Source: Apium graveolens (taxonomy: Eukaryota > Streptophyta > Magnoliopsida > Apiales > Apiaceae). Taken from it: a stretch of DNA of 64,000 nt. Where the stretch lies: the NCBI RefSeq assembly GCF_009905375.1, contig NC_133647.1:52820506-52884505 (forward strand), written 5' to 3'. The translations under genes and the position numbers were made by a program. Below, piece by piece: positions 14,832 to 64,000 of this stretch (within the stretch, counting starts at the first letter, position 1; the number at the start of each line of letters is the position of its first letter). Below the pieces are notes generated by a model. That model did no database searches, was not told the DNA's origin, and worked only from the letters and a program-made list of their open reading frames with translations.

Positions 14832-14833
14832 AT

Positions 14834-18949: not shown

Positions 18950-19001
<52 letters not shown>

Positions 19002-19209
19002 GGTGGATACTTTCAAATCCACCAGAAAGTTTTAAAAGCTTGTGTTTTTATTACTTAGTATTTTGATTCTCACTACTCTTTTATTCCGCACCATATCAAA
19101 TCAAACACTGTTATATTTATCAAGTTAGACTTTCTTAAAATTGAAAAAGGTAGCCAGAATTACATTCAACCCCCTTCTGTAATTCTTGTTGTATTGTTAG
19201 GGAATAATA
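18172..19209 (+). repeat. LTR of element Y, unit 2, with TA microsatellite
   Basis: Near-identical to the LTRs at 13831 and 22551. A pure TA run of about 48 bases (18952-18999) replaces the much shorter TA tract in the other two units and explains the greater length of this unit. It carries the same cccgacggatg words. Confidence 0.75.
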
Positions 19210-19211
19210 AT

Positions 19212-19223
19212 TGGTATTAGAGC
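19212..19223 (+). promoter_or_regulatory. Element Y primer binding site, unit 2
   Basis: tggtattagagc, one C-to-T change from the sites of units 1 and 3. Confidence 0.82.
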
Positions 19224-19908: not shown

Positions 19909-20860
19909 TCTATGGAATACAGCTGGAACTGGTATAAAAGACTTTTTCACCTCAACTTCAACAATATCAATGAACTTGTGAGGAAAGATCTTGTAAGAGA
20001 ATTGCCCAATGCAGTATTTACTTCTGATGGTTTATGTGATTCATGCCAGAAATCCAAGCAAAGGAAGACATCTTTCAAGAGTAAAATTGAATCCTCCATT
20101 CTTGAATCATATCATCTACTTCATGTTGATCTCTTTGGTCCAGTGAATGTTATGTCTATTTCCAAGAAGAGGTATGCACTTTTGATTGTTGATGAATATA
20201 CAAGATACACATAGGTGTATTTTATGCATACCAAGGATGAATATCCATCCATTCTTCTTGATCATGTGAGGGAGCTGGAAAAAGGATCAACATACAAAGT
20301 GAAGATCATTAGAAGTGATAATGGAACTCAATTCAAGAATAGCTCTATGGAAGAGTTCTGCAAACTCAAGGGGATAACACAAGAGTTTTATGCTCCTGGA
20401 ACTCCACAACAAAATGGAGTTGTTGAAAGAAAGAATAGAACTCTGATAGAAGCTATAAGAACCATGCTAGAAGAAGCAAGACTGCATACCTACTTCTGGG
20501 ATGAGGTTGTGCAAACTGCTTGATTTACAAAAAATGTAACATTGATCAAGAAGCATGGAAAAACACCATTTGAGATGGTGAAAGGAAAGAAGCCAAATTT
20601 GAAATAATTTCATATATTTGGTTGTAAATGTTTTGTTCTCAAAACTCATCCTGAGCAGCTTACCAAGTTTGAATTAAAAACCGATGAAGGAACCTTTGTG
20701 AAATATCCTTTGTCTACAAAAGCCTTCAGAGTTTATAATCTGAGAACAAGAAAATTCATGGAATCTATACATGTACCTTTTGAAGAAAAGAATATAACAG
20801 GTCTAGAAGATGCAGATGACCATGATAAGTTGATATTTTAAAATGAAGTACCTTATGCTG
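19909..20860 (+). pseudogene. pol: Element X integrase, tandem copy 3
   Basis: Third integrase copy, like copy 2 but with an extra TAG at 20212-20214 (Trp in copies 1 and 2). The frame therefore splits into 19912-20214 and 20215-20523. D, D, E motifs are still recognisable (VDLFGPV, RSDNGTQF, VVERKN). Older stops shared with copies 1 and 2 are present. Confidence 0.9.
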
Positions 20861-22550: not shown

Positions 22551-23558
22551 TGTTGATAAGATTAACATAACACCTTAGTAGATTTAACTTAGTGATATTG
22601 TAGATTTCTACGGATGTTTAATTACTGTCTCGACGGATGATCTTTATAGTCCCAATGGATGGTAACTGAACATCCATCGAGAGTGTAGCTTATGTAACAA
22701 TAAGATTGTAACACATTTCTCCCAGCAACAATGTGTAGATTCTGCAGGAGTATTTAAGTCATGTTGACTACTAGTTGATATATAGAATAGGGTGACTAAT
22801 AGTAAATATAAGTTTTTTTGTAATTCTGTATAAATGAAATGGATTCAAGTGACAAAAAAGGCTCCCGACGGATGGTTCATAAAGTCTCCCGACGGATGAT
22901 CAAAAAAATCTCCCGACAGATGATCAATAATATCCCGACAGATGATCTAATTCAAATGGCTGTTAATAGTGACAACACAGTCACATGCGTCGGATGTTTG
23001 CAAATGGAATGTGGTAGCCTAATTGCAGGTGTTAGAGAATAAAGAAGCATTACCATTTCCATGCAATTGTGAAACAGTCAAAGATACTAGAAAGAGTAAT
23101 GAAGCAGCATGAATTTAGACTAGATACATTTTGTTTTATTATCTTGTTTTATTATTATGTAACTTGGTGATATATAAATCAAGTGTAGTAAGTAGAACAA
23201 ATTAACTAAGCAAGCTTATTTTTCAGAGAAATATATCAAGTTGTATTTTGTAAGCATTTCTCTGTAGTTTTGTTTGTTCAACTTGTAAAGCAGCTGTGAG
23301 CTATTCAAAGCTTCACAAAGTTCTCAATTGATATATATATATATATATCTGGTGGATACTTTCAAATCCACCAGAAAGTTTTAAAAGCTTGTGTTTTTAT
23401 TACTTAGTATTTTGATTCTCACTACTCTTTTATTCCGCACCATATCAAATCAAACACTGTTATATTTATCAAGTTAGACTTTCTTAAAATTGAAAAAGGT
23501 AGCCAGAATTACATTCAACCCCCTTCTGTAATTCTTGTTGTATTGTTAGGGAATAATA
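22551..23558 (+). repeat. 5' LTR of element Y, unit 3 (the original Y 5' LTR or its copy)
   Basis: Same LTR as units 1 and 2, followed by a PBS and then by the only Y gag that continues past the TAGAGCA junction into the rest of Y. It contains the cccgacggatg repeats (one is changed to ctcgacggatg at 22628) and a short TA tract at 23331-23350. Confidence 0.75.
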
Positions 23559-23560
23559 AT

Positions 23561-23572
23561 TGGTATCAGAGC
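23561..23572 (+). promoter_or_regulatory. Element Y primer binding site, unit 3
   Basis: Exact tggtatcagagc. Confidence 0.88.
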
Positions 23573-24768
23573 AAGCTCTTGAAGGACAAAGAGTATAAAG
23601 ATCACAAAAAACAACAAGGTGAACAAGAAGGATGCTTGAGTTAAAATTCCATTTCTGGACAAAGATAACTATCACCACTGGAAGGTGAAGATGCACCTAC
23701 ATCTTCTTTCTTAAGATAAGGCCTATGTGGACTGTATAGAGAGAGGTCCTCATGTACCTATGAGAGCTGCAACTACCAATGAACGATCTGTTCCAAAACC
23801 TAGGCATAAATGGTAAGATCCTGATATTGAGCAAGTCAGGAAGGATAAGAAGGCAATGAACATATTATTCAATGGTGTTGATTGTGATATGTTTGATAAC
23901 ATCATTAACTGTAAAACAACCAAAGAGGTTTGGGACACAATACAGATTATTTGTGATGGTACTGAGCAAGTGAGGGAAAATAAGATGCAGCTCCTGATTC
24001 AACAATATGAGCACTTCCATTATGAAGATAGTGAGTCACTCACTGATATTTTCAGTAGGCTTCAGAAACTACAGAATTCTCTAAAACTGCTTGGAAGAGT
24101 CTATCAAACGAAAAAATCTAACCTCAAGTTCCTTAGATCTCTCCCAAAGGAGTGGAGGTCAATGACAGTCTCATTGAGAAATTCTCAGGATTACAAGGAG
24201 TTCACCTTGGAGAGACTGTATAGCATCCTGAAAACTTATGAGCTTAAAATAGAGCAAAATGAAAGGATGGAGAAAGGAAGGAAGAAAGGAGGGTCCATAG
24301 CACTGGTTGCTGAGTTAGAGAAGGAGAAAGAGATGAAGGTAGAAGCTGTTGAATCTACATCAAAGGTCTGTGAAAGCAAGGGTAAAGGGCTGGTAGCTGC
24401 AAGTGAAGAACAGTTGAGTCAAGATGACATGGATGATACAGATGTGCATTTAGCATTCTTATCCTGAAGATTTGCCAATCTCAAATTCAAGAAGAATTTT
24501 GGAGCTGCTAAGCCAAATAGAAACATGGTGGATAAATCCAAATTCAAGTGTTTCAAATATGGCTTAGCTAGTCATTTTGCTAATGAGTGTAGAAAGTCTG
24601 ATTTTAGCAAAAAGAAGTTTGAGCTTGTTGATTATAAGCAAAAATACTTTGAGCTGCTCAAACAAAAGGAAAGGGCTTTCATTACATAGGAAAATGACTG
24701 GGCTGCAGATGGATTGGATGAAGATGAAGAAACAAGCTATGTCAATCTAGCCCTAATGGCCAAGTCAG
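23573..24768 (+). pseudogene. gag: Element Y gag, full-length version, broken
   Basis: Copia Gag continuing beyond the duplication point. Open from 23856 to 24467 (EVWDTIQIICDGTEQ, QYEHFHYEDSESL, then a Lys/Glu-rich tail). After a TGA the zinc knuckle appears as CFKYGLASHFANEC, with its second Cys replaced by Tyr, then a TAG at about 24688. Upstream there are stops at about 23640, 23715 and 23816. Confidence 0.87.
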
Positions 24769-39531: not shown

Positions 39532-39782
39532 TGTAACACCCCCAAATCCGGGGTCGGGGATCCGGATTGTCACGAGTTCCATTTCCCTTAATTACACTTA
39601 GTTCTTAATAAACAATCATCTACTGCGTACTGTGACCCCACAATATACACACACACCACAAGTTATAGTCTCAGAGATGAATACCAAAAAATAACACAAG
39701 TCATTTTATTCCACAATTGTAAGTCATTACACCTCAAAAAGGTTTTTGAATAAATTTACATATTATTTGCCATTATTACAAT

Positions 39783-39929
39783 TCATAAATGTACATAAGT
39801 CTGGTACAAGAAAAGTTGAAAGCCTAGCCTATTGGTAGTTCCTACCTCAGCTACAACGGCATCAACGCCTACAGGAAACTGCGGAACGTTTCCTATCCGC
39901 TCACGAATTGGGAGCTTGGTCCTGTTCAT
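39783..39929 (-). CDS. Small LTR ORF, A type, 48 codons
   Basis: Starts MNRTKLPIRERIGNVPQF and includes AEVGTTNRLGF. It is homologous in sequence and position (about 150-400 bases before the LTR 3' end) to the ORF at 55106-55258 on the other A-type LTR. The frame is open in both copies despite LTR divergence. First residues resemble the histone H3 start at M1, R3, T4, K5 and R9. An additional ATG lies one codon upstream. Expression is unknown; it could simply be part of a structured R/U5 RNA. Confidence 0.45.
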   Translation of the reverse strand: MNRTKLPIRERIGNVPQFPVGVDAVVAEVGTTNRLGFQLFLYQTYVHL

Positions 39930-40684
39930 CATGTCTATCTGTTGTTGTGTGATGAAAGAATAAAGCAAGGGTGAGCAACAAGCCCACCGAAATAATATGT
40001 ATAATAATTAACAATATATGAGCATTCTCATAGTACTTATGAAAGTCTTGGTCAAGAAGAAATGAACCAAGTTTGATATCTTAACGCGACGAAGTCACAA
40101 AATATTCAGTATATATACTTATATACTTTTCAAAATCTTTGAAATCCTCTGCCATGTATAATATACATAGAGTTCCAGTTTATAACTGTATAAAAATATC
40201 GTTGCAAGGTGATCTTATATATCTAACCTTGTCTCAACTTTTTTCTGAAAATCTTTGTCATGCATAAGATAATCATTAACCAGATATAAGTTGAAAATAT
40301 GAAGTTACAAGATACCCCAATATACTTATATCTTTTCCAAATACTACTTGAACTACCACCATTCAAGTTATAACCAGTTTCAAAAGTTCATCACATGGAT
40401 GAGACTACAAGATAAGACTTGCATAGATTCGATCTTTAAAATATTATTGAATGAAATGAAGTTACGAGATACTTCATTAAGTCCCGATATATATATCCAT
40501 ATATATCTCTCATACATTTCCTGAAAACCTCTGTCATGTAATGTATGAACAGAGTTGCAATATCCAATGAATTTTGGAAAGAAAAGAATTTTGGCATAAA
40601 CCTGATATCTTGCTGATGAGGAAAAGATAACAATAAGTAACATTTTCTACTAGTAGATGGATGAATCCCCCACCGGTCATAACC

Positions 40685-40805
40685 CTGGCCTCATTAGGAC
40701 CTTGTGCTGGACCGCCACCCGGCCTCTTACGTGTTGATGGGCTGCCACCCAGCCACTTACACTTTGATGGACCATACCCCGGCCTGTCGCTTATGTCGAC
40801 TCAAT
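40685..40805. repeat. Imperfect tandem repeat, about 35 bp, GC-richer
   Basis: Roughly three units containing gccaccc(g/a)gcc, then ttac, then ttgatgg, within the A-type LTR. The LARD LTR has a different, GC-rich segment at this site (54225-54290). Confidence 0.6.
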
Positions 40806-41297
40806 TAGATGGACTTACTTCCCGAACATTGGGTAAGTAATCAATTCATTTATCAAAACAGCAACCTCGTTACGAATATAAAATACACCACAGAGCCGGA
40901 TCCCTCAATTTTTAAGCGAGTATTTAAATCCCCTTCGAAAGGAAGATCTTAAATTTGAAAACGAGTTTTGGGATCCGCTCTAACTTTTAAAAATCATTTT
41001 GAAGACTCGAAAACATTTTTAAGAATGTTTGGAGTAATGCTGATTTAATAAAATAAATCAGTCCCAATATATTAGAAAATATCTGAATATTATTATTTAA
41101 ATAATATTCTCATAAAGAATAATCTTTATAAAAATAATTGAAGTAGAAGTTTTAAAATTCATACTTGAAATGAATATTAAATAACCAAAGATATACATAT
41201 ACGAAAGTACGATCTTTATTTGAATAATCGAAAATAAGTTTGATTATCAAAACATTATTCTTTAATAAAATAAAGAATATTATTTAGTAAATAAGCG

Positions 41298-41465
41298 GAG
41301 TCATAAGTCCTCGAATGAATATTCAAAATAATATTCATTAAATAGAATAAACAGAGTCATAAGTCCTCGAATGAATATTCAAGATAATATTCCTTAAATA
41401 AAATAAACCGAGTCATAAGTCCTCGAATGAATATTCAAAGTAGTATTCATTAATAAAAAATAAAG
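41298..41465. repeat. Tandem repeat in A-type LTR, 56-bp unit, three copies
   Basis: The word gagtcataagtcctcgaatg starts at 41298, 41354 and 41410, each followed by an AT-rich tail with aatattcatt. The LARD LTR holds the reverse-complement equivalent at 53393-53600. Confidence 0.85.
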
Positions 41466-44139
41466 TTATCGAATAAACCTTATTCGATTAATAGTTTTGA
41501 AAACTATATCTATATATATATTATATAAATATATAATATACTCGGGAACATCGACTCCCGGTTTTAGAAAATGTTCGCTTTTGGGTCCCCTATACTAAGG
41601 GTATACGCAACTACTGCTTATCTCTAGCATAGGTATTATGCAATTATAAGCATTGGAATCAACAGATAGATATCAAGATTATGAAATAGACATGCATATA
41701 AACCATATCAACATGCTCCAATATATCACAAGATTTTCTAATTAACCATCATGCATCTATCACAAGCTAATGCATATACATATATACATCACAACAACAG
41801 TATAACGGGTATAAAACTTGCCTTAGTGTTCCCGAATAGACTTAAGCTTAGAGTGGATCCGATAACCTATGAAGAACAACATAAGTCGGAATTAACCCAC
41901 AGTCGCTTAAGAAACTAGACTTTAACCAATTGAACCCTAATGTTCGCTTATGGTCACTTCTACGCTTAACGAATCATATAAGTCGTTCGAGTACCCTTGT
42001 CTCCACCATTTTTAATAAATTAACCATTAAGAATTTTAAGGCGATTCTTTCGCGAGTACTCTACCAACTTCCCAATCCACTTTACTTAATTTTTTCATAC
42101 TCCAATTAGTCGTTTAAGGGCCTTAACCAAGGTTTCAAAGTAAGGCGAAGGGGGTCACAAAATGCCGTTACTTAAAATGGTCGTTTCTCCTAAACCGTAC
42201 ATCGGATTCAAGTGAACCACATATCAAAACGAAGCTTACGACATAATCTAACTAAATATGTAAAAGTCACAGATTCAATAGTTAGATCTCTATCCCTAAC
42301 ACTAAGATCAAGCAGTTGTATGAAATTGGGCATTACGACGACTATGTTTACGCGATTACCAAGTTTTAAACCACTTCAAACAACCACCATTCAACTCACA
42401 ACCAACAATACAACCAACCCTCATCCAAACCTTACTACATCAGTCCCCAAACCTCAAGATTTTCCAATTTATACAACCCCACACATCAACTACTAGCTAT
42501 ATTTAAGTTTCATTAACTATAAACAAGATTTCAACATCCAAATCACTACAAATCCAATCCAAACTCTAAACACACAAGCATCATGCTTCTCATTTACTAT
42601 ATCCATAAACACCATCATAATACTCAAAGTAAAGTTAGGGTTTGGAGGTGTTATACCTTCCTTGGAGTGATTAGAGTAGCTAGGAAGTCTTAGGGAGCCT
42701 CCTACAAGCTTGATCTTTCCAAAGAAATCAAGAACACAAAGTTAGGTTTCGAAGTTTCTAAAAGTCAGATTGAAATAACTGTCAAAACGAGGGTCTTACC
42801 GTGCTTATTTGGACGAGACTTGTGAACAAGAGTTGTAGGCCATCTCAATACCTTTCCACAGAGCTATAGAACATACTATTTGAGTGAGTATTGAAGGAGA
42901 TATGGTAGTTTGAAGTTGCTGCTCTGGTTTTGGCCGAGAGCTTGCTTCTTTAAAATGAAAAGTCAAGTTTGTGTTATGATTTTTTTGTTTTGTTTCTTTG
43001 TTTATGGCTTGGATAATTTTGAGGATTTACCATGGTAAAAAATGAATGGCTCACAATCAACCAACAACACACTTCTTTTTGTCATGCTTAGGTCATCATT
43101 CTTATGTCATCCAATTGTCACATGTCTCTTCCTTGTGGTTTGATGATGTCACAATCATTAGCTTCTTGTACAAGCTTGTCTCTTGGTCGCTTATTTATTT
43201 TACGGTTCGCTTAACTTTCATTCTCGTTCGTCATTCTCATCCCTATGATACTATAACTCATGGTGAAAGCCTTGAATTCACAAGAATCAAGGATATTCAC
43301 TTTGAGTTTAACAAAAAAAATATCACCATGCAAAGTCAACACGTAAGTTTTCTACTCTAAACTCTTTAGATACACATGAAAAACATGTAGGGAGTAAGAT
43401 TACTTGATTATAGGATGATTATTTGAGTGAAGAAATGAAGAAAGAAGGGGATGGGGGCTTCGGTTTTGGAAATTGCCGAGAGGGAGGGGAGAAAGCCGAG
43501 AGGGAGGAGGAGAAGAAGAGGAGAGTGAAGTGGTGGAGTGGAAGTGGAGTGGTGATCACTTCCTTGATTTGTTTTTATGTCTTGACTTGACTATAATGTG
43601 AGTGGGTTTGGGTAATGACAAGAGTAACCTTCTAGCTAGAGTTAGGCTATCTTGCATGCAAGGTGAAGGAGGTAATTTAGCTAATAAATCATGAGTTAGT
43701 GGGTTTAGAAATGTCTTCTTTGTCCTTGAAGAGTATAGAAAGGTAGTTTGCATGCAAGGGCTTCCTTGTAATTTGCTAATTATTACAACTAAAATTTGTA
43801 AAGATTTATTTTTATAAAATAAAATACAAGTTCAAATATTATAAAATTTATACCATAAAATAACTTGGATTTTTAGAAATTTTATAAAATCACTTTCAAA
43901 ATTTGTGAACAAAATAACCTTTAAAAGAAAATTTCTCCAAGGTTTAGAATATTCCTTATAAATCAAAAATAAAGGAAATAAATAAACTTTTGCTTTGAAA
44001 AATCATATATTACATAAAGAAAATTTATAATGTAGAAATCTTCATTCACACAAATGTACAACCATTAAGTATATTTACATTCGGCTCTAATATTATACCA
44101 AGTCCACAAATAATATTACACAAAATGTCGGTCATAACA

Positions 44140-44152
44140 TCCTCTCCCCCTT
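44140..44152 (-). promoter_or_regulatory. Chromovirus polypurine tract
   Basis: Minus strand gggggagagga directly before the LTR start TGTTATGACC, as expected for plus-strand priming. This supports an LTR edge at 44139. Confidence 0.75.
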
Positions 44153-44173: not shown

Positions 44174-44368
44174 CTAAGAGAACAGATGAGGATACCGGGA
44201 ACGCATATCAGACTCTAACTCCCAAGTTGATTCTTCAACCTTGGGGTTCCTCCAAAGTACTTCCACTAACTTTACCGACTTATTCCAAAGATTCTTTACT
44301 TGCCAGTCAAGTAATTTGATAGGTTGCTCCACAAATGACAGGTGTGCCTGAATTTTTACAGGTTCATA
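44174..44368 (-). pseudogene. pol: Chromodomain, integrase C-terminus (beyond a premature stop)
   Basis: Continues the integrase frame after a TAA at 44369-44371 and ends at a TAG (44174-44176). The read-through contains FVEQPIKLLDWQVK, LVKVLWRNPKVEESTWELE and MRSRYPHLF, the signature of the chromodomain that ends plant chromovirus integrases. In other chromoviruses this domain is linked to targeting of integration to marked chromatin. Here a single nonsense change cuts it off, so an ordinary translation product would lack it. Confidence 0.85.
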
Positions 44369-45400
44369 TTATATCACATGGTTGGTGTCAGGATTGTACT
44401 TTTTAAGCAACGACACATGGAACACATTATGCACATGCTGATACTGAGGTGGTAAGGCTAACTCGTAGGCTACCTTCCCCACTTGACTCAAAATCTCAAA
44501 AGGACCTATATATCTAGGTGCTAACTTCCCCTTCTTGCCAAATCTAGACAACCCTTTTCTTGGTGACACCTTCAACAAAACGGCTTCGCCTACTTGGAAT
44601 CGAACATCCTTACGCGCTGGATCCGCATACTTCCTCTGTATATCTTGAGTAGCAAGCAATCTCTTCTGAATTAACTTGACTGTTTTATGCAACTGTTGTA
44701 CCAATTCTGAGCCTAGAATCCTTCCTTCTCCTACTTCATTCCAACTTATCGGTGATCTACATTTTCATCCGTACAAAGCTTCGTATGGTGGCATGCCAAT
44801 ACTAGAGTGATAGCTGTTGTTGTAAGAGAATTCTATCAATGGCAAGTGGTCGTCCCAACTTCCTGCAAAATTGATTGCACAACTGCGCAACATGTCTTCG
44901 ATTGTTTGAATTGTCCTTTCACTCTGACCATCGGTCTGTAGGTGGTACGCCGTACTCATGTTCAACTTCGTGCCAAGAATTTCTTGAAATTGCTTCCAGA
45001 ATCTTGAGTTAAATCGGGGATCTCTGTCTGAAACTATCGATACGGGTACTCCATGACTTAGTACGATTTCACGCACGTACAGATGAACTAATTTGTCCAA
45101 TGATGACTTCTCATTAATTGGAAGGAAATGCGCCGACTTTGTAAGGCGATCAACTATAACCCATATAGCGTCATGTCCGGATTTTTTTCGCGGTAGTCCC
45201 ACTATAAAGTCCATAGAAATATTTTCCCATTTCCATTCTGGATTCTTTAGGGGCTGAATTAATCCGCTTGGTCGTTGATGTTCTGCCTTCACTTTCTAAC
45301 AAGTATAACACTTTGCAACCCATTCTGCCACGTCTCGCTTCATATTTGGCCACCAAAAGTTCTGCTTTAAGTCCTGATACATCTTGGTGCTCCCCGGGTG
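44369..45400 (-). pseudogene. pol: Chromovirus integrase, broken
   Basis: Zinc region remnant MVAKYEARRG and [15 protein letters not shown] frames, then [37 protein letters not shown] and [16 protein letters not shown] (D, D, E positions) at 44765-45292. The GPY/F-type C-terminal module [21 protein letters not shown] is at 44369-44704. A stop near 44762 separates the last two, and a frameshift or stop separates the zinc-binding part. Confidence 0.9.
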
Positions 45401-46327
45401 GATTGAAAATCTTGAATTGTGGGCTTCTTGTAGGATCTCATTCTTCAATTCAGGTACATGAGGAATCCAAATTCTTGAGGAAAACGTTAGTATACCTTTC
45501 TCATCCCTTTAAATACCAATCTCTTCTCCAGTTAGCTGATTCTTCTCTTTCTCCATTACTTCTTCCTGACATTTCGTTATCTTTTCCACTAGTGTAGGCT
45601 GAAAAGTCATTGCACGACAAACTTCTTCAACTATTCCACAATCACAAAGTTCTAATCCAAATTTCTTAATCTCTTCAGACAATTCCTTTGGTGTTGCCAT
45701 CATATTCAATCTCTCCTTCCTACTTAAAGCATCGGCTACAACATTCACCTTTCCAGGATGATAATTTATCGAGCAATCGTAGTCCTTGATCAATTCCAAC
45801 CATCTCCTTTGCCTCATATTGAGCTCCTTCTGAGTGGAAATATACTTTAAACTCTTGTGATCCGTGTAGATTTCATACTTTTCTCCGTAGAGGTAATGTC
45901 TCCAAATCTTAAGTGCGAACACTATGGCGGCTAGTTCTAAGTCATGCGTCGGGTACTTCAACTCATGCGGTTTTAACTGTCTTGACGTATATGCGATCAC
46001 CTTATTGTGTTGCATTAGCACACAGCCCAATCCTTTATGTGAAGCGTCACTGAAAATCACAAAGTTTCCTTGGTCATCTGGTAGTACTAACACCGGAGCC
46101 GTTACCAATCTCTGTTTCAACTCTTGAAAGCTAATCTCACATTATGCACTCCATTCGAACTTCTGATTCTTCCTAGTTAACTTAGTCAATGGCGTGGTGA
46201 TTTTCAAAAAATCCTTGACAAACCTTCTATAATACCCTGCCAATCCTAGAAAACTTCGCACTTCCGTAGGTGTCTTTGGCCTCTCCCAACTCATAATCGC
46301 CTCAATCTTTGCCGGATCTACTTTAAC
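45401..46327 (-). pseudogene. pol: Chromovirus RNase H, and RT connection
   Basis: 203 open codons (45509-46120): [61 protein letters not shown] and [15 protein letters not shown], the complete Ty3/gypsy RNase H with its D, E, D residues. Stops at about 46143 and 46327 break the link to RT, and a stop at 45507 ends it. Confidence 0.9.
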
Positions 46328-47272
46328 TCATTCATTTCCAATGACGTGTCCCAAAAATTGAACTTCCTTTAACCAAAACTCGCATTTAGAAAACTTGGCA
46401 TACAACTTCTCTTGTCGGAGTATCTCCAATGCTATCCATACATGCTGCTTATGTTCTTCTTCCAACTTTGAATAAATAAGGATGTCATCAATGAATATCA
46501 CTACAAACTTGTCCACATACTTTTTAAATACCCGATTCATCAGATCCATAAATGCGGCCGGGGCATTAGTCAATCCAAACGGCATTACTAAGAATTCATA
46601 ATATCCATATCTGGTCCTGAATGCTGTCTTGGGAATATCTTCTTCCTTGATCCTTAATTGATGGTATATTGATCTCAAGTTAATCTTCGAAAAGAACTTT
46701 GCTTCTTTCAGCTGGTCAAATAGGTCATTTATTCTTGGTAGCGGGTAGCGGTTCTTGATCGTTACCTTATTCAACTCCCGATAATCTATACATAGTCGCA
46801 TACTTCCATCTTTCTTCTTTACAAACAGAACAGGTGCTCCCCATGGCAACGTACTTGGCCGAATCACTCCTTTATCCAACAATTCTTGTAGCTGGCTCGC
46901 CAACCCTTTCATTTCTGCTGGTGTCATCCTATATGGGGCCTTTGAAACTGCATCTGTGCCCGGAGCAAGGTTGATCTCGAACTCGATTTGTCGATCTGGT
47001 GGTAAGCCTGGTAGTTCGTCTGAAAACACATCTGGGAACTCGTTAACTATGGGGATATCTTCTATGCTGGGATTGCCCTTTTCTGAATCCACTACATAAG
47101 CTAGGAACGACTCACAACCTTTTCTAAGTAGCTTATTAGCCTGAACGATTGTAAGAAACAGTTGCTCTTGCCTCTGTCCCTTAAATACTACCTTCTCTCC
47201 ACTCTTCGTCTTTAAATACACTTTCTTGGTCTTACAATTAATCTGGGCGTTATTCTTCCCTAACCAATCCAT
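46328..47272 (-). pseudogene. pol: Chromovirus reverse transcriptase
   Basis: 314 open codons: [60 protein letters not shown] and the catalytic [13 protein letters not shown]. The motif YHQLRI is present but the preceding Ser/Gly is changed (LRSIYHQL). The upstream join to protease is broken: the frame passes from ADL directly to a sequence equal to ILGMDWLG, suggesting a small frame-changing deletion at about 47273-47285. Confidence 0.92.
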
Positions 47273-47274
47273 AC

Positions 47275-48756
47275 CTAAAATAAGTCGGCTGTAAACTTAT
47301 GCCCCAAAATATCAATCTCACACTTCGGACAGAATTGATTCACAGGAATCTTCTCTTGGTTCGCAATTACCACATTTACTACCTCGCTCATAATCATTTT
47401 ATCACATTGAAGTTTATCAACAAAAGTTTCTGATATGAAAGATCTTGTTGCTCCCGAATCAATCAATACTTTAGCTTTGACATTATTGAGTAAAAGTGTA
47501 CCTGCTATCACCTCAGAGTTCTGAACAGTGTCCTTCATTTTCAAATCGAATGTCCTTGTTGTTGCTTGCGGAGTTGTTGTAGGTGGTGGAGGTAATGCCA
47601 ATACCTCAGCTGGCACGCTTGCACTGGTACTTGCCACATTCATTAAAGCTTTGACTGGTCTGGTTGTCTTGCACTCCCTAGCTATGTGTCCAGTCTTTCC
47701 ACACTTGTAACATGTAACTCCTGGCTTCGGCATCTTACACTCATTTCCCAAATGTCCCTTCTGGTTGCACCTATAGCATGTCATGCTCAGCTTATTACAC
47801 ACTCCGGGGTGCCTTCTTCCACAATGCTTGCATTCCGGTCTCTGGAATCTGTTTTCTCCAACTTGTCCTTGGTTGGCCTGGTTGTTCCATTTCGATTCTT
47901 GTCTTTTGCCCAAATTTCCCTTCTTTTGAAAATTTCCGCCCTTATGGAATCCAATCCTCTTTACATTCCGATCTTGTGAATTTCCGGCTTCAGACTTTTC
48001 TTCATAAAATGGAACATTTCTCTTTTTGTTATCCCTTTCCTTTCTTGACTGCATCCCATTGTTCTCAATCAGAGCAGCTTTCTGTACTACTCCCGCATAA
48101 GTATCAAGCTCAAACATAGCCACTCTATCTCTGATCCAAGGCTCCAATCCTTGTTGAAATCTCTTCGCTTTTTCCTCCTCAGTGCTGGTATACTTTGTCA
48201 CAAACCTTGACAACTCGGTGAACTTCTTCTCATACTCCAGTACCGACATATTCCCTTGCTTCAACTCAAGAAATTTAAACTCCATCTGATTCTGCATGTA
48301 CTTAGGGTAATACTTTTCCAGAAATAACTTCTTAAATCTTTCCCAAGAAACTTGTTGAGTTGCTTTCATAGCTTTTACTGATTCCCACCAATAGATGACT
48401 TCTCCCTTCAAGAAGTAAGTAGCATATGGGGTATTCTGATCGTCCCCTAACTGTACCAACTCAAAATCCCTTTCCATTTCCTTAATCCATGTGTTAGCTA
48501 TTATTGGATCAGTGGTATCAAGAAATTCAGGTGGATTCACATTCTGAAAAGCCTTGAAAGTGACAACTTGTCGAGGTGGTACTGGTGGATCAGGTGGTTG
48601 GTGTGGTTTTCGGTTATCTTGGTTTTCAAATCGTTGTTGAAGAGTTAGTTGTTGTTGAGCTATAGCATCGGTTTGTTGTTGCAAAGTTTCCAGTAATCAA
48701 AGAATATTTGGATCTGTGGTAGATGTGGTTGTTGGGTTCTTCTTTTTGGGTGGCAT
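47275..48756 (-). pseudogene. gag: Chromovirus gag-protease, early stop
   Basis: ATG at 48756 (MPPKKKNPTTTS), a TGA at codon 20 (48697-48699), then open to 47275. Gag landmarks are TWIKEMERDFELVQ, FLKGEVIYWWESVK and FLELKQGNMSVLEYEKKFTE. Two CCHC knuckles follow, CYRCNQKGHLGNEC and CYKCGKTGHIAREC, after a shorter Cys cluster CKHCGRRHPGVC. Protease: VLIDSGATRSFIS with intact DSGA. The frame ends at the deletion before RT. Confidence 0.92.
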
Positions 48757-49067: not shown

Positions 49068-49436
49068 CTAAGGCTCCACTCCATCAGAACGGGGCCTGGT
49101 AGTCTTCTCCTCTCGAAGCGTCTTCACAATGCTCTGGAGCTCATCCGCCACCATCTGGATGATATACTGGCTGGTGCGGTCTCGGTGTGATGGCATCTCC
49201 TCAAGCTTAGTGTTGACGTACTGAACCAAAGTCTCAAGTCTCGCAGTCATCTGCTCCTTAGGCTTCCCTTCATAGTTTCGGCTGTCCGGGTACACGTTCT
49301 TCAGTCGGTCTATCAGTCGGTCATGCTTGCCCTGAAGCATGTCAAACTCGCGCCTCAACTCAACATACACGGAAAAATCAATAGTGTCGTCCGACCTAGA
49401 GGATGACGAGGAATGCACCCTTTGCTGACAAACCAA
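49068..49436 (-). CDS. Extra ORF between PBS and gag, about 90-122 codons, unknown
   Basis: An uninterrupted frame in the leader, ending TGA/TAG-free until 49068. The first in-frame ATG gives MLQGKHDRLIDRLKNVY and about 90 residues; the open frame extends 32 codons further upstream (SSSSSRSDDTIDF) without an ATG. A pyrimidine-AG (ttggtttgtcag) lies at the 5' edge and could be a splice acceptor. The peptide is highly charged and helix-prone, with no cysteines in the ATG-initiated part. It is intact while gag and pol carry stops. Some plant Ty3/gypsy lineages have an ORF before gag, but I do not recognise this one. Confidence 0.5.
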   Translation of the reverse strand: MVCQQRVHSSSSSRSDDTIDFSVYVELRREFDMLQGKHDRLIDRLKNVYPDSRNYEGKPKEQMTARLETLVQYVNTKLEEMPSHRDRTSQYIIQMVADELQSIVKTLREEKTTRPRSDGVEP

Positions 49437-49558
49437 TTAGAGGAATATTAATCATAATAATAATAATAAATTTACTTAACCTACTCTCTCGCATATTATC
49501 TATAGCCTATACATATATCCCATAACCTATTTGGGCTGTCCAGGGACTCTAAACTGTA

Positions 49559-49570
49559 GCTCGGATACCA
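49559..49570 (-). promoter_or_regulatory. Chromovirus primer binding site
   Basis: Minus strand tggtatccgagc, one base from the iMet site tggtatcagagc. It lies five bases from the LTR edge at 49576. Confidence 0.85.
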
Positions 49571-49575
49571 AAACC

Positions 49576-51198
49576 TGGCACACCCCAACTTAAAATACAA
49601 AATAAATAACTTTTACAATATTTAAAAGAATGTAAACTTGACTGAATCCAAGATCTTACAGTTTAGGGTTTGGAACAACCTAACACTACCATCTATTACA
49701 ACTGATTTTTTTATCGAGTCCTCACATAAAACTATCTATTATTCTACCTGAGCTCGGACATACGCATCGGCGTCACAGGTCTTACGTGCTGTCTGCTTGA
49801 ATCTAACCATAGCTACTAGCTGTAATATCAGGGTAAAGCAAGGAGTGAGCCAAATGATCAACAAGTGCTAAATAATATGGTATAAAGCATAAATCGAGAT
49901 ATATATAAAAGAATGACAATGCGAAGACGTAACCAATATTAACAAGAGATAAAACTTTGAGTGATGGCATCATTTGCTTGAATCAAAACATTTTCAAAAT
50001 CATAACTTAAACAAAATCATTTTATGACGCTACGGATTACAGCCGGTGATCAGCTGCGAAGTAATCCCGAACCTCGCTGGGTTTTAAAACATTAATGGGA
50101 TCCCTAGGCAACTTTTAAGCCTACAATATAAGTGTGGAAATGACTCGCGTCTCAGTCCAGATCCACTATTCAAAGAAAACATTTATCCCCCTTTGGGACT
50201 GAAAATCCATATTTTAAATATTTCAAAAACTGATGTTGATTCATGATAAAATCTCTTAAGTAGTAAACATTTTTATCAAGGGATTATAGATCAACTTGAA
50301 ACACTGGGAATATGTCACCAAATCTCAGGGCCATGATCCACTAGACTTTACTATATTAGGGTAATTGAAAGGTTTCCATAGACAAGAACTTTGACAAGGA
50401 AATTTAGCAAGGTTATTGGATATTATGAAAGAGTAATGCCAAACTAGGCTTAAAGCAATGGTTTTCGACAAGGTACAAGTACTAGAACATCAAGAAGATA
50501 AGCTTCATGAATACTAAGGGTGTTAAGGTATGAGGAAATGATATTTAGCTCAAGGTATATCAGGATTGTAAAACTTTAGGGCAAGAAAAAGGGTTATCAA
50601 TCAATTAAGAACAACTTTAAAGAATATCTGGCTTTTAGATATCAAGGTACAGTTTCTATTGGGGTTCAAGCATCAGGGTGAGATGTCAATATTTTAGGAA
50701 TCAATAGCATGTTAATCAAGAGGATAAATCAAGTATTATATCATATCTTTATTTTATCATGGCATTCCAATTACTTTGATATACTAGCGTGATACGACTT
50801 TTAATCTACTTGCAATATGTACTTGAGGGTCCATGGCATTTCTATATAATATAAAGATAGATTTAAGAATCGCTTGGTTCAAGTATATCAAGATAACTCA
50901 GGATAATCACATCAATATATATGAACTAATTATCACACATTTACAGTGTAAACGAAAAATAGGTTGAATCACTTGCCTTGAAAAATGCTGGTCTGGTCTG
51001 GCTGGTAGGAGCAACTGGAAGCTTTACTCGACCTTTATGGCAAGTTTACCCTCGTCTCGAGATCCCACACAATTAATAATAACCTCATTATAATATATTC
51101 TCACCAACTCAACCTATTTACAACCCGAAATTAAACACAAATGGCACTTAGGCCTATATGCACGAAATTTATAATCACCTCATAAATACAATAGTACA
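49576..51198 (-). repeat. Chromovirus 5' LTR, B type, truncated (1623 bp seen)
   Basis: On the plus strand it begins tggcacacccc just after the PBS and continues until the LARD-like element at 51199. Except for a short block around 49740-49850, which includes the word taaagcaagg(a/g)gtgagc, it shows no visible similarity to the A-type LTR at 39532-44139. Apart from the small ORF at 49739 it contains no gene. The rest should lie beyond the right edge of the LARD-like element. Confidence 0.75.
49739..49810 (-). CDS. LTR micro-ORF encoding a histone H3 tail-like peptide (23 residues)
   Basis: ATG at 49810, stop TAA at 49739-49741, followed by TAG. The peptide starts MVRFKQTARKT and ends AYVRAQVE. 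Plant histone H3 starts MARTKQTARKS: residues 1, 3 and 5-10 are identical (eight of ten) and position 11 is a Thr/Ser exchange. K4 and K9 of mature H3 have equivalents, with the ARK(S/T) context of K9 kept. Similarity stops after position 11. A splice-acceptor-like ttacag lies just upstream and the frame remains open upstream of the ATG. It sits 164 bases from the LTR 3' end. Translation is unproven. Confidence 0.5.
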   Translation of the reverse strand: MVRFKQTARKTCDADAYVRAQVE

Positions 51199-53248
51199 TG
51201 TAATAACCCCAATTTTTGGGAAATTTTTGAAACCCTTATGAATAGTGTTTTTGCTGAATGAGAAAACTTTTCATGCCACACTATGTAGGGGTTCTGATAT
51301 GGATATTCTGAGATTTTATTAGTACTTTATATGGGATATAAGTGTATGTAAAGATCGTCAGAATTCAAATCCGAACACTTTGATTTTTCCCGGAAATACA
51401 CTAGATACGGAAAGATTTGAGAAAAAGGTAACAGGATAAAAAGGATTTAAATTAAAGGATTATAGGAGAGGATCATAAAAGGAATATAATATATTGAGAA
51501 AGGTTAAGGGAACCTAAGTAATAAGATCCCGGGTATGATCCCTCAAACGATAAATGAAAACGAAAGTTAAGCGAACCGTATAACAGATCAGCGGTCATTA
51601 GGCAAACGATTAGGAAGTTAATCAAGGGGATTAGTGGGGATGATGTCATCCAACCAATAGAAAGAGGACAAGGAGGGGAGGATGACATCATGAGGATGAC
51701 ACAAGCATGACATGGGAAGGAAGAAGATGTGGTGGCTTTTTAACCACACAAAATCAAGGGCAACTAGGTAATTTACTAAAACAAACACAAAAATCAAACC
51801 AACTAAGCCAAGCAAATCATTTTTCATCAAAATCAAAAAGAAACCAAGACATTGTTCTTCATGCTCTCGGCCAAAACAGAACCAGAACACTAAAACTGCT
51901 GTATCTCCTTCATTTCTCACTCAAATATTGTGTTCTATAGCTCATTGGAAAGGTATTGAGATGGCCTACAACTCTTGTTCACAAGTCTCGTCCAAATAAT
52001 CATGGTAAGACCCTCATTTTTACAGTTCTTTAAATCGGACTTTTAGAAACTTCAAAGCCTAACTTTGTGTTCTTGATTTCTTTGGAAAGATCAAGCTTGT
52101 GGGAGGCTCCCTAAGGCTTCCTAGCAACTTAACACCTCCCAAGGAAGGTATAAACTTCAAACCCTAGCCTTTACTTTATTTGTTAGTAAGTTTAATGGTT
52201 GGTGTTGTGAAATGAGAAGCATGGATTGTGATTATTAGTAGTTTGGTTTGATTTGGAAGTGTTTTGGTAATTGAAGCTTGATTATAGTTCATAGGTCTTG
52301 ATTGTGGTTGTTTGAGTTGAAAACCTTGGAGATTATGGACTGATGTGGTATGGTTTAGGTGAAGTTTTGTTGTATTGATGGTTATGAGTTGGTTGGTGGT
52401 TAATTGGAGTAGTTTAAACATTGGTAATCGCGTAAACATAGCCGTCGTAACGTCCGATTTTCTTTGGACTGTTTTTGTGCATAACATTAGGACCCGAGAA
52501 ACCCCTGATAGATTATGACCACTGCCATGTTTAGATAGCTCATATTACGAGCTTCGTTTTGATATGTAGTTCGTTCGATTCCGATGCACGGTTTAGGAGA
52601 AACGACCGTTTCAAGTAACGGCGTTTCGCGAACGAAACTTTTCCCCTCGCCTTACTTTGAAACATAGGTTAAAGACCAAAAATGGTTAATTAATGTATGA
52701 AACATTTATTGTAAGTGTGTTAGGCAGTTGGTAAGACACTCGCGAAGGAATCGCCTTAAAACTCGTAAAGGTTAAATTATTAAAAATGGTGGAGCCGAGG
52801 GTACCCGAGTGACTTAAGCGAATCAGTGAGCGCAAAACGAGCGTTAGAGTCTAAGTTAGTTAAAGTATAGATTTACAAGTGACTTTGGTTTAATTCCAAC
52901 TTACTTGTTGCTTATAGGTTACCAGACTCGTCCCGAGCCATTCGTAACCCCCAGTCGCTCAGGCAAGTTTTCTACCCGTTATACTGTTGCTGTGATATAA
53001 ATATATGTATATGCATTATCTTGTGATATTGCATGATTGTTATTAGCAAATTTTGCGATATATTGGAGCATGCTAATATGGTATATATGCATGTCTGTTT
53101 CGTAATCTGGTTATCTATCTGTTGATTTCAATGTTTATAGTTGCATAATACCTATGCTAGAAATAAGCAAGTAGTTGCGTAAACCCTTAGTATAGGGGAT
53201 AAAAGGTGAACATATTTCTAAACCGGGAGTCGATGTTCCCGAGTATAT

Positions 53249-53285
<37 letters not shown>

Positions 53286-53392
53286 GGATATAGTTTTTAA
53301 AACTATTAATCGAATAAGGTTTATTCGATAACTTTAACTTTATTTTATTATTGAATATTATTTCGAATATTATTCGAAGGCGTATGACTCCT

Positions 53393-53600
53393 TTACATTA
53401 TTTATTGGATATTACTTGGACATTCAATTGAGGATGTATGACTCCTTTATTTTATTTAATGAATATTATTTATAATATTCATTCGAGGTATTATGACTCA
53501 GCTTATTTCATTTATTGAATATTATTTGAATATTCATTTGAGGATCTATGACTCCGATTATTTGCTGAGATATATTCTTTATTTTATTAAAGAATAAGGT
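53393..53600. repeat. Tandem repeat in LARD LTR, about 44-55-bp unit, four copies
   Basis: tatgactc occurs at 53393, 53437, 53492 and 53547, each preceded by aatattattNgaa..cattNgagg-like AT-rich sequence. It is the counterpart of 41298-41465. Confidence 0.8.
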
Positions 53601-55105
53601 GTCGATAATCAAACTTATTTTTGATTATTCAAATAAAGATATTACTTTCGTATAAGTATATCTTTGATTATTTGCTACTCGTTTCAAGTATAAGTTTTAA
53701 TACTTCTACTTCAATTATTTTTATAAAGATTATTTTTTTATGGGAATATTATTTAAATAATAATATTCAGACATTTTCTAAATATTCTGGGGACTGATTT
53801 ACTTCATTAAATCAGTTTTACTCCAAACACTCTTTAAAGTATTTTCGAGTCTTTAAAATGATTTTCAAAAGTTAGAGCGGATCCCAAAACTATTTTTATA
53901 TTTAAGATCTTCCTTTTAAAAAGGGGATTTAAATACTCGCTCAAAACCTGAGGGATCCGGCTCGGTGGTGTGTTTTATATTCGCAACAAGGTTGCTGTCT
54001 TGGTAAAAGAGTTTTTGATTACTTACCCAATATTCGGGAAGTAAAATTCTTGGAACAAGTTAATCCATTAACAGGCATCGCCTGGGAAATATCGGTGAGT
54101 TTTCCTTTCCAACTAGATACGACTTCTTGGTGAAGCCGTATCAACAAGTTTCTACTTGGGGAAAGTGGGGACGAGCTTTACGTTTCAGAGTCATGGATTT
54201 CATCTGAACTAGGAGTGGCGTAAGTGGCCGAGTAGCGCCGGCCCAGCCTTATTATATTGGCCCAAATGGCCTGGAAGTTCCGCTAAGGCGGTCCATTCCT
54301 TAGGAGTTCAGTGTTCGGTTGACAAGTAAATCCGACAGGTTCTCCTCTACATGTAGAAAATGGTGGGGTTGCACTACTACGACTGATCATCGTAAGTGGT
54401 CTTCCTGGCGCGGCAAACTCCCGTAATGAGTTCATCATCCAATTGGATAATTTCTGCAACACTACCCAGAGCACTTCGATAGAAAGGCTACGGTTGGGCG
54501 ATTGTTGAGTGTTGGCAGGGTCAAGTTTTCAAAATGATGTTTACATCAAATGAAGTATCTCGTAACTTCATTTTATTTTGATAATATTTTAAAGATTTAA
54601 TCTATTCAAATCTTGTCTTATAGTCTCATCTATGTGATGAACTTTTGAAACTGATTATAACTTGAACGGTGGTAGTTCAAGTAGTATTGGGAAAGATATA
54701 AGTATATTGGGGTATTTGGTAACCTCATCTTTTAAACTTATATCTAATTAATAATTGTCTTATGAATGACAAAGATTTTCAGAAAAACGTTGAGACAAGG
54801 TTAGATATATGAGATCACCTTGCAACGATATTTTTTTTTATACAGTTATACACTGGGACTTTGTGTATATTATGCATGGAAGAGGACTTCCAATATTTTG
54901 AAAAGTATATATGTATATATATATATACTGAATATTTTGCGACTTCATCGCATTAAGATATCAACTTGGTTCATTTCTTTTGACCAAGACTTTCATGAGT
55001 ACTATGAGAAGGCTCATATATTGTTAATCATTATACATATTATTTTGGTGGGCTTGCTGCTCACCCTTGCTTTCTTCTTTCATCACACAACATCAGATAG
55101 ACAAG

Positions 55106-55258
55106 ATGAACCGGACCAAGCTCCCGATTCGCAAGAGGTTAGGAGACGTTCCGCAGTTTTCTAGAAGCACGGATGCCGCCATAGCTGAGGTAGGAACTAC
55201 CAATAGGCTAGGCTTTGAACTTTTGATGTATCAGATTATGTATATTTATGAATTGTAA
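55106..55258 (+). CDS. Small LTR ORF, A type, 50 codons
   Basis: ATG at 55106, TAA at 55256-55258. It starts MNRTKLPIRKRLGDVPQF and includes AEVGTTNRLGFELLMYQ. The equivalent ORF at 39783-39929 keeps about two thirds of the residues and the whole frame. The N-terminus shares M1, R3, T4, K5, R9 and K10 with the histone H3 tail. It lies at the position of the H3-like micro-ORF in the B-type LTR, after the same cttgcttt word. No known domain. Confidence 0.48.
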   Translation: MNRTKLPIRKRLGDVPQFSRSTDAAIAEVGTTNRLGFELLMYQIMYIYEL

Positions 55259-55505
55259 TAATGGCAAAGAAATGTAAATTTATTCAGAAACCTGTTTAAG
55301 GTGTATTGGCATATAATTGTGGAATAAAACGACTTGTGATTATTTTTGGATATTCATCTCTGAGACTATAACTTGTGGTGTGTGTGTTTATTGTGGGGTC
55401 ACAGTACAGAGTAGTTGATTATTTATTAAGATTGGGTGTTGTTAAGGGAAATGGAACTCGTGACAACCCGGATCCCCGACCCCGGATTTGGGGGTGTTAC
55501 AGAAA

Positions 55506-55673: not shown

Positions 55674-55895
55674 TTCGTTATCGTATATGGTAGCGGAACT
55701 CCGAGCCCTGAGGTTGAGGAGCAACAACCCGATGATGTTTTATTAGTAATTGGAGATCGGATTGTGGATCCGATAGAGTGTCCTAATACAGGACCGGATG
55801 ATGTTGATATTGAGGATGTAGCGGTTGAGGATGTTGTCCTAGAAGGGATAGTTGCTGAGGAAGATCCCATGGAGGATCCTGACAAGAATGAATAA
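55674..55895 (+). pseudogene. Acidic open frame in the leader, unknown
   Basis: 73 codons without an ATG at the start, following a TAG. Very acidic: EVEEQQPDDVLL, DDVDIEDVAVEDVV and AEEDPMEDPDKNE, ending TAA at 55893-55895. It occupies the place between PBS and gag, as does the extra ORF of the chromovirus, but shares no obvious sequence with it. It may be a remnant of a pre-gag ORF or of the Gag N-terminus. Confidence 0.4.
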
Positions 55896-61095: not shown

Positions 61096-63145
61096 TGTAA
61101 TAACCCCAATTTTTGGGAAATTTTTGAAACCCTTATGAATAGTGTTTTTGCTGAATGAGAAAACTTTTCATGCCACACTATGTAGGGGTTCTGATATGGA
61201 TATTCTGAGATTTTATTAGTACTTTATATGGGATATAAGTGTATGTAAAGATCGTCAGAATCCAAATCCGAACACTTTGATTTTTCCCGGAAATACACTA
61301 GATACGGAAAGATTTGAGAAAAAGGTAACAGGATAAAAAGGATTTAAATTAAAGGATTATAGGAGAGGATCATAAAAGGAATATAATATATTGAGAAAGG
61401 TTAAGGGAACCTAAGTAATAAGATCCCGGGTATGATCCCTCAAACGATAAATGAAAACGAAAGTTAAGCGAACTGTATAACAGATCAGCGGTCATTAGGC
61501 AAACGATTAGGAAGTTAATCAAGGGGATTAGTGGGGATGATGTCATCCAACCAATAGAAAGAGGACAAGGAGGGGAGGATGACATCATGAGGATGACACA
61601 AGCATGACATGGGAAGGAAGAAGATGTGGTGGCTTTTTAACCACACAAAATCAAGGGCAACTAGGTAATTTACTAAAACAAACACAAAAATCAAACCAAC
61701 TAAGCCAAGCAAATCATTTTTCATCAAAATCAAAAAGAAACCAAGACATTGTTCTTCATGCTCTCGGCCAAAACAGAACCAGAACACTAAAACTGCTGTA
61801 TCTCCTTCATTTCTCACTCAAATATTGTGTTCTATAGCTCATTGGAAAGGTATTGAGATGGCCTACAACTCTTGTTCACAAGTCTCGTCCAAATAATCAT
61901 GGTAAGACCCTCATTTTTACAGTTCTTTAAATCGGACTTTTAGAAACTTCAAAGCCTAACTTTGTGTTCTTGATTTCTTTGGAAAGATCAAGCTTGTGGG
62001 AGGCTCCCTAAGGCTTCCTAGCAACTTAACACCTCCCAAGGAAGGTATAAACTTCAAACCCTAGCCTTTACTTTATTTGTTAGTAAGTTTAATGGTTGGT
62101 GTTGTGAAATGAGAAGCATGGATTGTGATTATTAGTAGTTTGGTTTGATTTGGAAGTGTTTTGGTAATTGAAGCTTGATTATAGTTCATAGGTCTTGATT
62201 GTGGTTGTTTGAGTTGAAAACCTTGGAGATTATGGACTGATGTGGTATGGTTTAGGTGAAGTTTTGTTGTATTGATGGTTATGAGTTGGTTGGTGGTTAA
62301 TTGGAGTAGTTTAAACATTGGTAATCGCGTAAACATAGCCGTCGTAACGTCCGATTTTCTTTGGACTGTTTTTGTGCATAACATTAGGACCCGAGAAACC
62401 CCTGCTAGATTATGACCACTGCCATGTTTAGATAGCTCATATTACGAGCTTCGTTTTGATATGTAGTTCGTTCGATTCCGATGCACGGTTTAGGAGAAAC
62501 GACCGTTTCAAGTAACGGCGTTTCGCGAACGAAACTTTTCCCCTCGCCTTACTTTGAAACATAGGTTAAAGACCAAAAATGGTTAATTAATGTATGAAAC
62601 ATTTATTGTAAGTGTGTTAGGCAGTTGGTAAGACACTCGCGAAGGAATCGCCTTAAAACTCGTAAAGGTTAAATTATTAAAAATGGTGGAGCCGAGGGTA
62701 CCCGAGTGACTTAAGCGAATCAGTGAGCGCAAAACGAGCGTTAGAGTCTAAGTTAGTTAAAGTATAGATTTACAAGTGACTTTGGTTTAATTCCAACTTA
62801 CTTGTTGCTTATAGGTTACCAGACTCGTCCCGAGCCATTCGTAACCCCCAGTCGCTCAGGCAAGTTTTCTACCCGTTATACTGTTGCTGTGATATAAATA
62901 TATGTATATGCATTATCTTGTGATATTGCATGATTGTTATTAGCAAATTTTGCGATATATTGGAGCATGCTAATATGGTATATATGCATGTCTGTTTCGT
63001 AATCTGGTTATCTATCTGTTGATTTCAATGTTTATAGTTGCATAATACCTATGCTAGAAATAAGCAAGTAGTTGCGTATACCCTTAGTATAGGGGATAAA
63101 AGGTGAACATATTTCTAAACCGGGAGTCGATGTTCCCGAGTATAT

Positions 63146-63182
<37 letters not shown>

Positions 63183-64000
63183 ATGGATATAGTTTTTAAA
63201 ACTATTAATCGAATAAGGTTTATTCGATAACTTTAACTTTATTTTATTATTGAATATTATTTCGAATATTATTCGAAGGCGTATGACTCCTTTACATTAT
63301 TTATTGGATATTACTTGGACATTCAATTGAGGATGTATGACTCCTTTATTTTATTTAATGAATATTATTTATAATATTCATTCGAGGTATTATGACTCAG
63401 CTTATTTCATTTATTGAATATTATTTGAATATTCATTTGAGGATCTATGACTCCGATTATTTGCTGAGATATATTCTTTATTTTATTAAAGAATAAGGTG
63501 TCGATAATCAAACTTATTTTTGATTATTCAAATAAAGATATTACTTTCGTATAAGTATATCTTTGATTATTTGCTACTCGTTTCAAGTATAAGTTTTAAT
63601 ACTTCTACTTCAATTATTTTTATAAAGATTATTTTTTTATGGGAATATTATTTAAATAATAATATTCAGACATTTTCTAAATATTCTGGGGACTGATTTA
63701 CTTCATTAAATCAGTTTTACTCCAAACACTCTTTAAAGTATTTTCGAGTCTTTAAAATGATTTTCAAAAGTTAGAGCGGATCCCAAAACTATTTTTATAT
63801 TTAAGATCTTCCTTTTAAAAAGGGGATTTAAATACTCGCTCAAAACCTGGGGGATCCGGCTCGGTGGTGTGTTTTATATTCGCAACAAGGTTGCTGTCTT
63901 GGTAAAAGAGTTTTTGATTACTTACCCAATATTCGGGAAGTAAAATTCTTGGAACAAGTTAATCCATTAACAGGCATCGCCTGGGAAATATCGGTGAGTT
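61096..64000 (+). repeat. LARD-like element 3' LTR, first 2905 bp (runs off window)
   Basis: Matches 51199-54100 almost exactly. Differences found by eye: t/c at about 61260, c/t at about 61472, a/c at about 62405, a/t at about 63079, a/g at about 63849, and TA-tract length near 63150-63183. The window ends about 1.4 kb before the expected LTR end, so the copy of the small ORF at 55106 is not visible. Confidence 0.93.

Follow-up and report, generated by a model that had tools for sequence, protein, structure and literature searches.

An exon resembling the histone H3 tail in the LTRs of celery retrotransposons, predicted to begin a spliced 5' accessory protein

Why does the long terminal repeat (LTR) of a celery retrotransposon contain a reading frame that starts like histone H3, and is that frame a free peptide or part of a larger protein? 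The locus lies in a stretch of 64,000 nucleotides of Apium graveolens (contig NC_133647.1, positions 52,820,506 to 52,884,505), here called the window. A sequence-only reading had reported the frame and considered its likeness to H3 hard to explain by chance. Translation bears out the likeness on the minus strand, where the frame runs from 49810 down to 49739 and reads MVRFKQTARKTCDADAYVRAQVE followed by a stop: eight of its first ten residues are those of H3 (MARTKQTARK), and threonine replaces serine at residue 11. The plus-strand translation of 49739..49810 contains no H3-like peptide. Over all six frames of the whole window this is the top 11-residue match to the H3 start (8/11), against a top match of 6 in nine and 5 in eleven of 20 Markov shuffles of the window, and several LTR families encode such a peptide, some with a better match to H3, so that the argument against chance holds. 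The H3 likeness of the frame is real, and it is a likeness to the tail: no histone family is among the Pfam hits of the related accessory proteins P0002 and P0003 (E up to 1), and none of the six PDB sequence matches of P0002 (E up to 1) is a histone. A second copy of the exon was not found in the window with up to three mismatches, and a pattern search of viral_contigs gave no matches.

The frame stops about 160 nt ahead of the end of the LTR of an element, E1 (Table 1); on the minus strand this end reads ..GGGGTGTGCCA, with its CA at 49576, and a primer binding site (PBS)-like sequence comes next. The order of gag, protease, reverse transcriptase (RT), RNase H and integrase is that of Ty3/gypsy elements, in a frame that is broken by stops in the window copy. 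The end of pol matches Pfam Chromo with E 0.0025 and 18.2 bits, under the cut-off of 25.1, and its tentative assignment to type II was made by eye. We provisionally take E1 to be a Tekay/Del chromovirus from its layout, its PBS and its resemblance to such elements. Five stretches of viral_contigs matched a pattern for its RT, none of which was confirmed. Past the E1 polypurine tract, the LTR (39533-44141, minus) is E2-type-like (78% and 89% over long stretches); since the 5' LTR (49576-51198, minus) is of another type, E1 looks like a recombinant that carries unlike LTRs. Elsewhere in the window (11179-24256), a segment of about 4.36 kb with copia RT pieces occurs in three tandem copies, about 98% identical, with PBS-like sites at 14834, 19212 and 23561.

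Table 1. Features of elements E1 and E2 in the window. A slash marks a predicted splice point.
Feature	Position	Strand	Evidence or remark
5' LTR of E1, 3' portion	49576..51198	-	truncated at 51199 by inserted element E2
LTR-borne coding exon 1, predicted, 21 codons, MVRFKQTARKTCDADAYVRAQ, H3-tail-like	49748..49810	-	same peptide in celery gene models P0003, P0011, P0016
Predicted intron, 323 nt, CAG/GTAGAA ... GTTTGTCAG/CAA, phase 0	49425..49747	-	spans LTR end and PBS
PBS-like site TGGTATCCGAGC	49559..49570	-	sequence reading
122-codon frame without ATG, containing predicted exon 2	49436-49071	-	ORF reading
Predicted exon 2 of 5' accessory ORF, 118 codons and stop, QRVHSSSSSRSDDTIDF...GVEP	49068..49424	-	homologues found, purifying selection
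E1 gag, zinc knuckles and protease start	47275..48684	-	sequence reading
E1 pol pieces: RT, RNase H, integrase, SH3_Tf2-1, interrupted by stops	44369..47290	-	sequence reading
E1 pol C-terminus, chromodomain-like	44177..44368	-	Pfam Chromo E 0.0025
E2 LTR exon, positional equivalent of exon 1, MNRTKLPIRKRLGDVPQFSRSTDAAIAE, donor GAG/GTAGGA, phase 0	55106..55189	+	donor used in P0025-P0030
E2 5' accessory frame FVIVYGSGTPSPEVEE..., opens after stop overlapping TAG acceptor, phase 0	55674..55895	+	
Equivalent exon in E2-like LTR, MNRTKLPIRERIGNVPQFPVGVDAVVAE	39846..39929	-	

A donor-like CAG/GTAGAA follows codon 21 of the H3-like frame in phase 0, and an acceptor TCAG/ lies 323 nt downstream, just within the 122-codon frame and again in phase 0; a stop codon stands a little upstream of it. 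The predicted joined sequence runs from ..GCTCAG/ onto /CAAAGGG.. or /CAACGTGC... This junction was derived from the window sequence before gene models using the same junction were met. When the 122-codon frame alone was used for a protein search, nine proteins were recovered, and the two annotated celery proteins that reach across both use the predicted junction: P0003 (..MVRFKQTARKTCDADAYVRAQ/QSAHSSSSSGSDDT..) and P0008 (the same, with I3 and N15). Searching with both exons widened the set to 16 proteins (P0002-P0017), in which the exact junction occurs five times (P0003, P0008, P0011, P0013 and P0016), P0014 joins exon 1 elsewhere, a gag-like exon follows exon 1 in P0017 and nine are without exon 1; these are celery gene models, not transcripts, made on a celery assembly other than the genome searched, and any gene predictor would repeat one choice across near-identical element copies. 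The H3-like frame is very probably the LTR-borne first exon of a gene for which splicing is predicted. The stand-alone micro-peptide of the sequence-only reading was set aside because the junction to the accessory ORF is in phase; its H3 likeness stands, and the frame most likely serves as coding exon 1 of an accessory protein made from a spliced message. The accessory ORF is a sense ORF between the 5' LTR/PBS and gag that is retained across copies and under selection, as is expected of a 5'aORF. Comparison with Pfam and PDB sequences gave weak matches only, and an AlphaFold model of P0002, made from an alignment of 10 sequences, is poor (mean pLDDT 54.5), with helices at 33-63, 74-95 and 102-124.

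A search of the celery genome with the LTR tail gave 5706 first-look candidates, the best 40 of which were scored, corresponding to 39 copies besides that of the window. In these 39 nearest copies the Met of exon 1 is present in 37, the 21 codons are stop-free in 34, and 32 have both, so the Met-initiated frame is conserved elsewhere. There are no indels in exon 1, and the donor GT and the acceptor AG are each intact in 38/39. KQTARK, which might have been peculiar to the window copy, is found in 18/39 as well as in other families; residues 1-11 are whole in 14 and all 21 residues in 10. The exon differs at 64/2520 letters, as against 640/23559 upstream and 325/11662 downstream (2.5% vs 2.7%), and codons 1-11 show 36 nonsynonymous changes against an expectation of 31, and 5 synonymous ones against 10. 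Thus no constraint on exon 1 was detected among the 39 recent copies, where it decays at the rate of its surroundings, and its variation there is post-insertion decay. Exon 2 of the same copies has 219 nonsynonymous and 165 synonymous changes (expected 321 and 136), a pattern that marks selection before insertion.

Constraint is visible between subfamilies. Exon 1 of the window and that of L055 have 21/21 residues in common, with 7 synonymous and 0 nonsynonymous differences, 4 and 0 of which fall in codons 11-21, outside the search pattern (P 0.006 under the flank mutation spectrum); the counts are 7 and 0 against L061 and 6 and 0 against L059, the pairs not being independent of one another. 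The flanks of L055 and L061 are 74-81% identical to those of the window, rising to 88-90% in the last 50 nt upstream of the ATG. The expectation that the exon varies less than the neighbouring LTR is therefore upheld between subfamilies and fails among recent copies. A comparison chosen free of any pattern, that of the E2 exon with the E2-like LTR exon, both in the window, gives dN 0.04 and dS 0.89 for codons 1-11, and dN 0.33 and dS 0.16 for codons 12-28, with few changes in all. For exon 2, dN is 0.01-0.05 and dS 0.05-0.28 within the window's type, A, and dN 0.06-0.13 and dS 0.14-0.52 within type C.

Exons of other LTR families were retrieved from the celery genome only, by patterns in which part of the peptide is set in advance; an upstream LTR anchor lying outside exon 1 is CCCTGNTNNTACAGCTAGCARYY. 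The pattern M-[GNN]-[R/S]-x-[K/Q]-Q-T-x-[R/S]-K is matched 28,227 times (reversed control 0), by copies of a handful of families and not by independent events. By peptide, the 30 of these loci that were fetched comprise 18 of type B2 (MARL[K/Q]QTQRK), 10 of type A and 2 of a third kind (MVRFKQTARKTSGDSGYAYRKMLEQ), with the donor AGGT retained in 18/18, 9/10 and 2/2, respectively. A stricter pattern, M[A/V]RTKQTARK, has 221 matches (reversed control 0); the 30 fetched include 2 H3 genes, the other 28 being exons with the same layout that belong to families C (MVRTKQTARKSTGRQGEDHLRAQ), C2 (MVRTKQTARKS..ENHLRAQ) and D (MVRTKQTARKSTGGD.EAYARAQ and kin). Beyond the residues fixed by the strict pattern (1-10), serine comes next in 24/28, threonine in 24/28 and STG in 14/28; GT stands at nt 69 in 24/28 and AGGT at the donor in 20/28. 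Several families are nearer to H3 than the window (MVRTKQTARKSTGR and MVRTKQTARKSTGG), and L096 and L097, which read MVRTKQTARKSTGG, agree with the H3 tail at 13/14 residues. Several LTR families have the core H3 positions R2, K4, Q5, T6, R8 and K9, encoded by differing codons. H3 identity is not universal: in B2, Q replaces A7 and often K4, and E2 has LP in place of Q5-T6.

Exon 1 lengths to the donor are 63, 69, 75, 84 and 87 nt in five types, every one a multiple of three. At loci with a PBS, a homologue of the second exon follows in phase in 3/3 of type A and 5/5 of C/C2 (L079, L087, L089, L101 and L106), where it has 44-53% protein identity to A in the pairs computed and opens at TGA CAG/CAA in four. 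In D it is found in 1/4, in phase with a stop further in (L108, acceptor TTGTCTCTCAG/CAAATGATG). Six B2 second frames are in phase as well: four open after TAG/ with an acidic frame, one opens later and one is E2-type. From these second exons and the exon 1 lengths, the in-phase exon pair appears to recur in diverged families. The E2-type case, L066, has a B2-type LTR exon and then an E2-type accessory frame, for which a simple E2 label is unsuitable; as this locus illustrates, exon 1 and exon 2 types are swapped between families. At L073 and L110 a copia-type gag lies downstream of the exon MVRFKQTARKTSGDSGYAYRKMLEQ/GTAGGG, which may reflect a nested insertion or another element class.

Element E2 has LTRs of about 4.3 kb (51199-55501 and 61096-64000), and appears to be a recent insertion because these copies are 99.76% identical across the 2.9 kb present twice in the window; its internal frames are badly broken nonetheless. 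A protein search with the E2-type exon gave 13 proteins: six gene models (P0025-P0030) exit at GAG/GTAGGA, P0021 and P0023 read through the donor, and five are unspliced frames. In the P0023 gene model the E2-type LTR exon is joined to the E2-type accessory frame via a later donor. P0025-P0030 have E2-type LTR exons spliced, as modelled, onto assorted downstream exons.

We consider it fairly probable that the element encodes a spliced accessory gene whose product uses the H3 tail as a bait or decoy for the proteins that write or read H3. Exon 1 would be spliced from the 5' LTR across the LTR end and PBS onto the ORF between the PBS and gag, and since it sits in the LTR each element holds it twice. 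The predicted translation product here would have 139 residues: the 21 H3-tail-like ones come first, followed by a serine-rich linker and then a helical body. A nuclear accessory protein would in this way carry R2-K4-Q5-T6-R8-K9. Its N-terminal tail would contact host writers or readers of H3 and, by occupying H3K9 or H3K4 enzymes and readers, might weaken silencing of the element; for this last step we infer from short H3 mimics elsewhere. A wider version, which we offer tentatively, would see the LTR as a portable H3-tail exon, in tens of thousands of copies on changing accessory bodies, serving as H3 decoys to dampen H3K9 methylation or RNA-directed silencing, while the same LTRs graft H3 tails onto downstream host genes.

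The same data must be weighed against readings in which H3 is not the point. The exon could be a basic N-terminus for nuclear localisation or nucleic-acid binding with an incidental H3 likeness: every exon type is basic (R and K at 3, 5, 9 and 10), E2 holds the charges without Q-T (MNRTKLPIRKR), and Tekay 5'aORF proteins of sunflower and grasses are predicted to be nuclear (PMC11728184, as far as its accessible text goes). Charge does not account for the uncharged Q5 and T6 of the A, C, C2, D, L073 and B2 exons, though these are pattern-fixed there, or for S-T-G, fixed by no pattern, following in 14/28, and we regard this explanation as unlikely. Less probable still is capture by an ancestor, in which the 5' end of an H3 gene became a handy start exon whose peptide has drifted since without H3-related function. 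Capture of an H3 gene start is in itself possible, judging by nucleotide agreement: C exons match the H3 gene at L088 at 31-32/36 nt, and those of L079 and L086, at 32/36, use the same codon at 8/11 shared residues. The second H3 gene, L105, agrees with C exons at just 26-27/36 nt (26/36 nt and 2/11 codons for the same comparison), which makes codon agreement with H3 genes inconsistent, and H3 likeness ends after residue 13 or 14. Drift is seen in A (T3F, S10T), B2 and E2, and is opposed by the silent-only change between A subfamilies.

That the stretch is an untranslated RNA or splicing signal in R/U5 we judge very improbable. The 50 nt preceding the ATG are indeed more alike than the outer flanks (0.88-0.90, window vs L055 and L061) and resemble a 3' splice site; against this, five exon types have phase-0 lengths, changes fall at silent sites, and exon 2 continues in frame under purifying selection. 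The suggestion that the peptide is a ligand of the element's own chromodomain is less likely on published chromodomain data, because, in the parts of those papers available, an aromatic cage is reported from non-seed-plant chromoviruses only (PMC6317226) and the plant type II chromodomain had no binding partner known at the time (PMC3350952). Overall, the interpretation of the sequence-only reading is partly supported, and the H3-tail bait or decoy on a spliced accessory protein is the reading that we prefer.

The nearest known counterparts, as described in the accessible parts of the sources, cover one side of this arrangement each. The 5'aORFs of Tekay/Del chromoviruses (sunflower Tekay 13-2, rice Retrosat-2 and maize Tekay; PMC11728184, PMC7264820) are likewise sense ORFs between the 5' LTR and gag, with helical stretches and no known domain, retained in most copies of a family. 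There they are described as one internal-region ORF, 402 aa long in sunflower, with an LTR exon, splicing and an H3-like start unmentioned in the accessible text. Their proteins are predicted to be nuclear, are given as of unknown function, and show no sequence similarity between sunflower and grasses (PMC11728184). Spliced messages are known from LTR elements, as the accessory or env-like gene of Bagy2 (PMC7264820) and spliced isoforms of sunflower elements (PMC7730604). Those excerpts and the celery prediction have subgenomic spliced messages in common; the former concern env-like or shortened Gag products, whereas in celery the first coding exon would lie within the LTR itself. H3K9 mimics in G9a, GLP and ATF7IP are substrates of H3K9 methyltransferases and ligands of chromodomains (PMC9768651, in part). 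They too are short non-histone motifs resembling H3 near K9, where the window has ARKT. The G9a site is also ARKT. As far as these sources go, the motifs are internal, of the host and a few residues long, whereas the celery tail is N-terminal, has up to 13/14 H3 residues with both K4 and K9, and belongs to a mobile element. The SNAG domain of GFI1 and SNAI1 binds LSD1, filling its cleft (PMC5896174, in part). It is likewise an N-terminal peptide imitating the H3 tail, and the celery tail might occupy the cleft of a histone enzyme in like manner; SNAG is far less H3-like in sequence, and in the excerpts its carriers are host transcription factors, not a retrotransposon. In the literature, seen in part and with Steinbauerova's surveys covered through citations of them, we found no description of an LTR exon that resembles H3.

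Plant transposons are silenced chiefly through the mark of H3K9 methylation. An element-made protein carrying an H3 tail would, if the preferred reading is true, be a direct counter-move to H3K9 silencing, and would give a handle on the role of chromovirus 5' accessory proteins. With splicing as predicted, an LTR can hold a coding exon, and therefore ORF surveys of internal regions would miss the true protein start. LTRs may also act as suppliers of a first coding exon to host genes, and those close to genes could give host proteins an H3-like start.
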